DNA of 37,596 nucleotides, taken from positions 1-37,596 of the forward strand of contig JAJUGR010000024.1 in assembly GCA_029265905.1 (NCBI GenBank), read 5' to 3'. A program made the translations under genes and the position numbers. The DNA is from Sporomusaceae bacterium. Its GTDB lineage: Bacteria; Bacillota; Negativicutes; Acidaminococcales; JAJUGR01. The notes beneath the pieces are model-generated. The model saw only the letters and a program-made list of their open reading frames with translations. It ran no database searches and was not told the origin of the DNA. Shown piece by piece: positions 213 to 1,996 of this stretch (the stretch's first letter is position 1; every line of letters begins with the position of its first letter).

Positions 213-263
213 CCTTTTACCGCTTCATTTTTCTGCCGTTTCGCGAAAATCTTTTTTAGCCCC

Positions 264-305
264 GTGACAAAAATCACAGCAGCGGGACAATTTTGTTGCT
301 ACAAT
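264..305 (+). promoter_or_regulatory. CRP/FNR-type operator with extended -10 promoter
   Basis: GTGA (264-267) and TCAC (274-277) form a perfect GTGA-N6-TCAC palindrome, the core recognised by CRP/FNR-superfamily regulators. Downstream is an extended -10, TG-C-TACAAT (297-305), with no recognisable -35. A start site about 7 nt past the -10 (around 312) puts the palindrome centre (270.5) near -41.5, the class II activator position. The motifs and spacing are seen. Which regulator binds (FNR, HcpR, CRP-like) is not, and no such gene is in the window. Confidence 0.65.
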
Positions 306-342
306 AAGCACATAGGGAAATAACACCAAGGAGTGATGTAAT

Positions 343-1299
343 ATGATGCCAAAAGGCGCTACCCTGCAAAAGGTTAAGGATCCGCAAGACCGCCGTTATG
401 CAATCACCCCGGAAATACCCGGCGGCTTTGTCAAGCCAGAGTTTTTGCGCAAGCTCGCCGACGCGGCCGAACAATTCGGCGGCGTGTTGAAATGCACTTC
501 CGCCCAGCGCATAATGATTACCATGTTAAAAGAGGACGACGTGGAAAAGGTCTGGCAGCTGCTTGGCATAGAGCCAAAAGCCGCCCCCGCCAACTGCGTC
601 CGCAGCGTCAAAATGTGCCCCGGCGATGTGTTTTGCAAGCGCGGCAAGCAAGACAGCATCAAGCTGGGCATGATCCTGGACAAACGCTACAGCAAACAGG
701 AAATGCCCTCGAAAATGAAATTTGGCGTAGCAGGCTGCCTCAACGCTTGCGGCGATACCCGCATGAAAGATGTCGGCGCCATCGGGTACGAAACCGGCTG
801 GACGATTTACGTCGGCGGCAGCGGCGGCGCCCACCCGCGCATCGGCGACGAGCTGGCTAAGGACTTAACGACCGATGAAGCCCTGCGCCTGATTGACATC
901 GTCGTGCGTTACTACAAGCGCCACGCCGGCATCGAGCGGATGGGAACCTTTATTGAACGCATCGGCTTTCCGCTGTTTAGCGAAGCCGTCTTGGCCGAAT
1001 ACAAGCAAGCGCCGGGCACGGAAACCAGCGCTGCTGCCCCTGCGATATCAACCCCCTCCGCGCCGCAGCCAGTCGCCTTGGCGCGCGGCCAAGCGGTCAC
1101 GCACGAATCCCTGATTGGCGATATTATTCGCGTCTACCCGGAGGCTATCCCCGCCCTGCGCAATATGGGCATGGCCTGTCTCGGCTGTCCCTCGTCGGCC
1201 GGCGAAAGCGTGGCCAACGCCGCCGGCATCCATGGCATGTCTGCCGACAAACTAGTAGCGGAGATCAATGCCGCCATCAAAGGAGGCTCAGCCAAATGA
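343..1299 (+). CDS. Siroheme/4Fe-4S sulfite or nitrite reductase-like protein with C-terminal DUF1858 domain
   Basis: The 318-aa protein has a nitrite/sulfite reductase ferredoxin-like half-domain (about 10-75), then a siroheme/4Fe-4S domain with Cys92-X5-Cys98 and Cys132-X3-Cys136, the ligand pattern of this superfamily. A linker rich in Ala, Pro and Ser (about 222-248) leads to a DUF1858 domain (about 252-312) with the conserved Cys279-X2-Cys282. It has one reductase repeat rather than the two of assimilatory enzymes, so it resembles the small, poorly characterised Fsr/Dsr-like group of anaerobes. No flavin domain is present, so electrons must come from a partner. AAGGAG at 328-333 selects ATG 343, with ATG 346 possible. 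The substrate (sulfite, nitrite or another oxyanion) cannot be read from the sequence. It overlaps the next gene by 4 bp. Confidence 0.88.
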   Translation: MMPKGATLQKVKDPQDRRYAITPEIPGGFVKPEFLRKLADAAEQFGGVLKCTSAQRIMITMLKEDDVEKVWQLLGIEPKAAPANCVRSVKMCPGDVFCKRGKQDSIKLGMILDKRYSKQEMPSKMKFGVAGCLNACGDTRMKDVGAIGYETGWTIYVGGSGGAHPRIGDELAKDLTTDEALRLIDIVVRYYKRHAGIERMGTFIERIGFPLFSEAVLAEYKQAPGTETSAAAPAISTPSAPQPVALARGQAVTHESLIGDIIRVYPEAIPALRNMGMACLGCPSSAGESVANAAGIHGMSADKLVAEINAAIKGGSAK

Positions 1300-1955
1300 G
1301 TGCATTTTTAGGACCGATCCATTACTGGCTGTATGCCAAAATCCAACATGTGCAGGACCGCACCGCCCGGTTGGCACAAGAAGCGAACGCCGCCTGCAGC
1401 GCCCTAGCCGAAAGCTGCCTGGCGACTGTATACGAAACCTACGGCGAACCACCGGCCAGGCAAACGGACTTGGCCGACTTGATCGACCCGTCCAACATTC
1501 ACGGCTGGCTGGCCCGGCAAATCCAGTTGACCGAAGCGCGCGAAGCGGCGCTGCTTAAAGAGCTCAGCGACTATTGCGGCGGCACCGCCTGGGAGCTGGC
1601 GGAAAAAGTCTTTGCCGAAGACGGCAAGCGTCTGGGCGAAGCAGCGGTCAAAACCAACCGTTACGATCTGGAAAAAGCAAGCGGCCTGTATCGAGCCTTC
1701 CATGACACGTTTCTGGCGGGCATGCCCTGCGACGGCGGCTTTGAAGAAGTCTCCAGCACTGACCAGGAAATTGTCTTGGAGCGCACCACGTGCCCAAAGG
1801 CTGGCCTGTGGAAGCAAGTCGGCGTTTCCGTCCCCAACATGCAAAAGCTTTACCAACTCTGGCTGGCCGCCTTCGTCGCCGCCCTCAACCCGGCGTTTTC
1901 CGTCTCGCAAGCCTGCGGCGACGCCAAACAGCGCCTGATTATCGCTCGTGCCTAA
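1296..1955 (+). CDS. Uncharacterised protein coupled to the sulfite reductase-like gene
   Basis: This 219-aa soluble protein has no signal peptide or membrane segment. Its start overlaps the previous stop in an ATGA junction, so the two genes are translationally coupled and probably cooperate. The N-terminal half is helical, with cysteines at 34, 41 and 94. The C-terminal part has an Arg-Thr-Thr-Cys166-Pro motif, a Gly-rich turn, an Asn-Pro at 198-199 and Cys207. This late Cys-Pro ... Asn-Pro ... Cys layout recalls the L-2-amino-thiazoline-4-carboxylate hydrolase-like family, but the resemblance is weak and by eye. A maturation or partner protein is equally possible. The gene is certain; no function is assigned. 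Confidence 0.85.
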   Translation: MSAFLGPIHYWLYAKIQHVQDRTARLAQEANAACSALAESCLATVYETYGEPPARQTDLADLIDPSNIHGWLARQIQLTEAREAALLKELSDYCGGTAWELAEKVFAEDGKRLGEAAVKTNRYDLEKASGLYRAFHDTFLAGMPCDGGFEEVSSTDQEIVLERTTCPKAGLWKQVGVSVPNMQKLYQLWLAAFVAALNPAFSVSQACGDAKQRLIIARA

Positions 1956-1965
1956 CGTAATTTGC

Positions 1966-1996
1966 GCCCGGATCGCAATCAGCGGTCCGGGCTTTT
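1966..1996 (+). terminator. Rho-independent terminator
   Basis: GCCCGGA (1966-1972) pairs with TCCGGGC (1986-1992), and TTTT follows. It lies about 10 nt after the stop of the uncharacterised partner gene and closes that two-gene unit. Confidence 0.85.

Follow-up and report, generated by a model that had tools for sequence, protein, structure and literature searches.

What does a siroheme reductase contribute to an anaerobe when it has no flavin or ferredoxin domain, carries a domain of unknown function at its C-terminal end, and is encoded directly ahead of a protein that matches no known family above cut-off? This arrangement occurs in a stretch of 37,596 nucleotides from a Sporomusaceae bacterium (contig JAJUGR010000024.1), which we refer to in its entirety as the window.

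The siroheme reductase-DUF1858 fusion and its operon

ORF A (343..1299, + strand, 318 aa), assigned from its domains and conserved ligands, encodes a fusion of a one-repeat siroheme/[4Fe-4S] reductase with DUF1858, and ORF B (1296..1955, + strand, 219 aa), an open frame with conserved residues, encodes what we call the partner protein. ORF B starts at 1296, giving a 4-bp ATGA overlap with ORF A, and both frames and their overlap are as described in an earlier sequence-only reading of this DNA. Ribosome-binding sites are recognisable by sequence on the + strand for ORF A (AAGGAG, 328..333) and, within ORF A, for ORF B (AGGAGG, 1281..1286). A tRNA-Arg gene lies 5' of ORF A on the opposite strand, and a hairpin scan placed a terminator-like structure (11-bp stem with nine G-C pairs, then TTTT) at 1966..1992 on the + strand; this is the strongest of the four terminator-like matches in the region, where shuffled sequences average 3.6. 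Because the tRNA gene precedes the pair on the other strand and the hairpin follows it, we read ORF A and ORF B as a two-gene unit. Past the hairpin, on the same strand as the pair, is an ordinary gene for an MscL mechanosensitive channel (PF01741; 2096-2539).

Two domains of ORF A, both on the + strand and both above their Pfam cut-offs, make up the reductase: a NIR_SIR_ferr half-domain (PF03460; aa 15-74, 385..564) and a NIR_SIR domain (PF01077; aa 83-221, 589..1005) that contains C92, C98, C132 and C136. A linker separates PF01077 from the DUF1858/TIGR03980 redox-disulfide domain (aa 252-309, about 1102..1257, + strand), which was identified by profiles (PF08984, 56.3 bits against a cut-off of 32.2; TIGR03980, 70 bits against 44.95) and includes a CxxC formed by C279 and C282. 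NCBI names TIGR03980 the "hybrid cluster protein-associated redox disulfide domain". Hardly any variation was seen among 28 relatives in the siroheme-4Fe-4S ligands (C92-x5-C98, C132-x3-C136) or in the C279-LG-C282 pair. With both Pfam domains and the Cx5C...Cx3C ligands, ORF A is by sequence a member of the siroheme nitrite/sulfite reductase (NIR_SIR) family. Pfam and NCBIfam profiles detected no flavin or ferredoxin (Fer4) domain in ORF A, in agreement with the earlier description of a one-repeat fusion that lacks a flavin domain.

Assignment of ORF A to the NirB, NirA or CysI type was rejected, as it has a single repeat and reaches none of the cut-offs for NirB, NirA, CysI and AsrC (sulfite_red_C). 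The small one-repeat siroheme reductases, namely the group I Dsr-like proteins, D. vulgaris alSiR and A. acetoxydans DEACI_1836, resemble ORF A in having a single siroheme-4Fe-4S unit and no flavin domain; compared by domain content rather than by alignment, ORF A differs from them in its fused DUF1858 and its co-occurring partner gene. The fusion of Veillonella montpellierensis (L128:5314-6516) has two DUF1858 domains, matched by Pfam in two stretches, and related genomes may share this arrangement, to judge by their longer open frames (407-430 aa). The genome from which the window comes also encodes a second small siroheme reductase of 224 aa without DUF1858 (L163:4103-4777, contig C1), with a CRP-type site ~1.7 kb upstream.

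Co-occurrence, neighbourhoods and promoter motifs of the pair

To what extent the two genes belong together can be read from their distribution. In a sample of 300 Negativicutes genomes, the partner is present in 123 and matches strongly, with at least 100 bits, in 82; the full fusion is present in 81. All 81 genomes with the fusion also hold the partner, and 81 of the 82 with a strong partner match hold the fusion, the sole exception being a genome that is 74% complete (Fisher p about 1e-73, with kinship of the genomes ignored). The two co-occur even where they lie on different contigs, as in three of the genomes (G002, G023 and G074). A scan of GTDB genomes yielded 472 partner relatives, and the best-scoring 80, from Negativicutes, Heliobacteria, many Clostridia and Cetobacterium, were taken as named loci; because they are the top-scoring 80 of 472, proportions among them lean to close relatives, and the loci include relatives and are not independent of one another. 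In 46 of these 80 loci the fusion immediately precedes the partner, both on one strand and separated by -20 to 226 bp, and in most genomes that carry the fusion the two genes are neighbours, so the adjacency seen in the window extends to other genomes.

Outside Negativicutes, again among the best 80 of 472 loci, the partner mostly adjoins DUF1858 rather than the reductase, and its neighbours in Clostridia and Cetobacterium are a stand-alone DUF1858, a hemerythrin protein or hcp. At 11 loci a free DUF1858 gene adjoins the partner in the same orientation, upstream in six and downstream in five, one of the latter 561 bp away past a hemerythrin gene. In one of the 11 (L144) the reductase, a frameshifted partner and DUF1858 are three consecutive genes, and in another (L143) a free DUF1858 is divergent from the partner. 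Several Negativicutes lineages without the fusion have the partner after a free DUF1858-matching ORF of 70-106 aa, and at four fusion-less Negativicutes loci (L045, L047, L049 and L051) the partner is alone; Heliobacterium and some Clostridium loci likewise have the partner without a DUF1858 or reductase neighbour. In Clostridium simiarum (L127), DUF1858 makes up the N-terminal part of an Hcp (63 and 568 bits), and the gene for this DUF1858-Hcp adjoins a free siroheme reductase and is divergent from the partner. A hemerythrin protein is encoded near the partner in 22 loci, immediately 3' of it and in the same orientation in 17, and there is none among the examined neighbours of the window pair. 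Seven loci have hcp no more than five genes from the partner, and in one of these (L085) it directly follows the pair; a Crp/Fnr regulator gene is that close in 13.

Rodionov et al. 2005 (PMC1274295) give wTGTGAn6TCACAw as the HcpR motif in Desulfovibrio and GTAACn4GTTAC (HcpR2) as the motif in most HcpR2-containing genomes. In the window, the CRP/HcpR-type palindrome CGTGACAAAAATCACA (263..278, + strand), of the form CGTGAn6TCACA, lies 64 bp upstream of ORF A and recurs upstream of related operons. A single CRP-type match turned up in 53 of 100 shuffles (mononucleotide, as in the other motif tests) and is unremarkable alone, so the site counts only together with comparative evidence. GTGAn6TCAC is found upstream of the operon with all eight positions matching in 18 of 77 loci (0.1 expected), and with at least seven of the eight in 42 (5 expected). 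The CRP/FNR-type promoter site of the sequence-only reading is therefore present and, across the 77 loci, strongly enriched ahead of the operon. The Veillonella pairs had neither the CRP-type nor the HcpR2 motif in their upstream regions.

The window's own genome has 13 GTGAn6TCACA sites, compared with one for a reversed control. One of the 13 is found 77 bp ahead of hcp, and others stand before apparently metabolic genes, so the regulon in this genome may exceed NO defence and may be under a general anaerobic regulator. Two such sites (G000:C11:188397 and G000:C28:12944, loci L168 and L173) precede genes that resemble, by a look at the sequence, those of fumarate hydratase and acyl-CoA dehydrogenase. 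One protein in this genome, on contig C33 (G000:C33:2298-3026), matches HTH_Crp_2 above cut-off.

Outside Negativicutes, an exact copy of the HcpR2 motif GTAACn4GTTAC lies in the 300 bp ahead of the partner at 12 of 27 loci (0.004 expected). The eight partner genomes examined have only 3-16 sites each, and in all of them a site is found 82-313 bp ahead of one or more hcp genes; in Clostridium simiarum a site separates the partner from the divergent DUF1858-hcp. A published HcpR-regulon motif is thus found upstream of the partner and is common to hcp in the same genomes, and from these sequences the operon is apparently switched on with NO-detoxifying genes. C. difficile depends on HcpR to tolerate NO and nitrite (PMC12915319); no match to genes of the ORF A or ORF B type was recognised in the main text of that paper or of a D. 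desulfuricans NO transcriptome study. The module shares its promoter motifs with the described HcpR regulon (hcp, frdX), and main-text passages of the 2005 study note hemerythrin-like genes in predicted HcpR regulons and do not name the siroheme-DUF1858 fusion or the partner family as members (PMC1274295).

The partner family

The sequence-only reading had proposed HMM and structure comparison of the partner, and named two refuting outcomes: a partner from a known family with a fixed role, or genes that are not neighbours elsewhere. Neither outcome was obtained. No Pfam or NCBIfam family matches ORF B above cut-off, and searches of the PDB by sequence, with the single sequence and with a profile, returned nothing significant. 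Among 62 relatives, H9, W11, K15, N67-I68-H69-x-W71-L72, R82, G142-M-P-C-D146, W172 and W189 are invariant, a pattern that suggests a functional site. The conserved cysteine is C145, within the invariant GMPCD. The Cys-Pro...Asn-Pro...Cys layout attributed earlier to the partner is not a family feature: C166 is Cys in 44 of the 62 proteins and the consensus residue after it is Leu, not Pro, and C207 is outside the conserved columns. Two diverged partners (L048:3377-5016 and L050:3504-5152) have lost the NIHGWL motif, and that of L050 has also lost GMPCD; both lie beside a DUF1858 protein, which in L048 precedes the partner and has in addition a sub-threshold ScdA_N match, and by a look at the sequence an MsrA-like gene is ahead of both.

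AlphaFold models of the window partner (pLDDT 94.4, pTM 0.90) and of its C. polyendosporum ortholog (pLDDT 94.2, pTM 0.89) agree in secondary structure and predict helices followed by beta-beta-alpha-alpha-beta-beta. In Foldseek searches with both models, H-NOX ranked first with weak scores (E 1e-3 to 2e-2, TM 0.37-0.50), and YslB and TRAPP Bet3 recurred among the PDB matches; for H-NOX, YslB and Bet3 together, TM values were about 0.3-0.54 and E was never better than 1e-3. A Foldseek search against viral structures gave no match. V4R and Bet3 are homologous (Podar et al. 2008, PMC2253512), and the partner model weakly resembles the H-NOX/V4R/Bet3 fold. The likeness is one of predicted topology; the partner differs from this fold in its low TM values, in lacking YxSxR and in having no profile similarity to HNOB or V4R. 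The family has no Pfam match to HNOB (2.1% by hhalign), and the YxSxR heme-binding motif is present in none of 62 partner proteins, compared with 21 of 23 H-NOX proteins. In the 62 relatives, no conserved His was found in the helix ahead of the first strand, the invariant histidines being H9 and H69. Membership in the H-NOX family by sequence was rejected for want of an HNOB profile match and of YxSxR, and membership in V4R was rejected since hhalign gives it no support.

A candidate role in nitrosative stress

Strict anaerobes encounter NO and nitrite in gut, mouth and soil habitats, and few of their defence proteins are known beyond Hcp. Because the linkage evidence concerns DUF1858 and hcp, we place the module in nitrosative-stress defence, and we propose that ORF A and ORF B form a two-gene operon of an anaerobic nitrosative-stress response that a putative HcpR-type regulator of the CRP/Fnr family would switch on together with hcp. 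The flavin-less siroheme-[4Fe-4S] domain would take external electrons, most likely from ferredoxin, or from a thiol donor by way of the fused DUF1858 CxxC, and would reduce nitrite, hydroxylamine or NO to ammonia. Such a reaction is likely because the best NCBIfam match of the siroheme domain is NirB (165 bits, under the equivalog cut-off) and because a similar small reductase is nitrate-induced in Acididesulfobacillus acetoxydans; that protein (DEACI_1836, 300 aa, PF03460 and PF01077) rises 16-fold in RNA and 29-fold in protein on nitrate, and its authors propose ferredoxin-dependent nitrite reduction (PMC10949509). DUF1858 would be a shared plug-in, carried on the siroheme reductase here, on Hcp in Clostridium simiarum and free elsewhere, and might serve as a dithiol relay or as a docking domain for the donor, a role that fits the way the domain swaps between Hcp and siroheme reductase; ORF A itself has no electron-input domain. 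The partner, with its H-NOX/V4R-like predicted topology and its invariant His, Trp and Cys, may work together with DUF1858 or act on it, whether as ligand-binding sensor, scaffold or thiol partner.

The domains, the linkage and co-occurrence of the two genes and their common promoter motifs can be read directly from the sequences. The whole reading built on them, in which an HcpR-type-controlled nitrosative-stress operon combines siroheme-dependent N-oxide reduction, a DUF1858 plug-in and a partner working with DUF1858, we consider reasonably probable, and the pair is probably an uncharacterised part of anaerobe survival under NO and nitrite. It would give a specific, testable role to DUF1858 and to an unnamed protein family, in a widely conserved gene pair tied to hcp by linkage, fusion and common promoter motifs, and would provide a candidate nitrite- or NO-reducing enzyme for Veillonella, Pelosinus and Sporomusa. 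We also entertain, tentatively and as a rather doubtful proposition, that the partner represents a new family that binds NO or metal, with an H-NOX/V4R-like fold and a His/Cys site, and that with DUF1858 as an interchangeable redox module serving both Hcp and siroheme reductase it makes up an unrecognised NO-detoxification system of strict anaerobes.

Some siroheme reductases take sulfite as well as nitrite, and sequence cannot tell which. The module could be a sulfite reductase for assimilation or detoxification, with DUF1858 handling the sulfide or polysulfide product; the nearest solved relatives of ORF A by sequence are F420-dependent sulfite reductases, and group I Dsr-like proteins have been described as small sulfite reductases (PMC3448663). 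We consider this unlikely, however, since NirB is the top NCBIfam match and the neighbour clusters common to several loci, inspected by sequence and partly with Pfam, contained no recognised sulfur-assimilation genes, whereas hcp, HcpR-type motifs and hemerythrin recur. The undescribed sulfur or nitrogen redox module of the sequence-only reading thus survives as an undescribed redox module, and hcp, the HcpR-type sites and hemerythrin favour nitrogen over sulfur. Judged by title and abstract, none of the papers found to name DUF1858 appears to treat this module, and a search for literature on the redox-disulfide domain found nothing related.

A different mechanism within the same nitrosative-stress setting would be metal-centre repair or thiol handling by a split analogue of RIC/YtfE, in which DUF1858 would stand in for ScdA_N, the hemerythrin would be separate, the partner would be a scaffold and the siroheme domain a lineage-specific add-on. 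RIC combines ScdA_N with a hemerythrin-like domain (PMC9268430), and in Clostridia the module likewise pairs a hemerythrin protein, whose gene adjoins the partner, with a small Cys domain, often a free DUF1858; unlike RIC/YtfE, it has separate genes, DUF1858 instead of ScdA_N, and a partner. The DUF1858 protein linked to the partner at L048 does match ScdA_N, but weakly and under cut-off, and hemerythrin lies beside the pair in only one fetched fusion locus (L083), so we regard repair as improbable. Far less probable still is the suggestion of the sequence-only reading that the partner might be an enzyme of the ATC-hydrolase type with a sulfur compound as substrate. PF14196 (ATC_hydrolase) matches the window partner with 20.2 bits (E 0.0011), below the curated cut-off of 28.1 bits, and at E<=0.1 it matches one of 30 family members; hhalign of the partner profile gives 92.6% probability against PF14196 proteins, compared with 0.1-2.1% against SiR, DUF1858, HNOB and V4R. 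This likeness is limited to the C-terminal half and does not take in the invariant H9 and N67-I68-H69. The ATC_hydrolase proteins are the closest, if remote, sequence relatives found for the partner; of the earlier suggestion the distant relationship is upheld, which is no evidence for a hydrolase function.

Two further features recur around the module favoured here. AsrABC-like (anaerobic sulfite reductase) genes lie beside it in two loci (L129:4905-7680 and L144:8949-11831), and AsrABC is reported to be nitrate-induced in two other species (PMC10949509, PMC5640608). A small cupin-like protein with a sub-threshold match to PF07883 is encoded after the pair in 16 loci, for example in Veillonella (L106:8924-9211).
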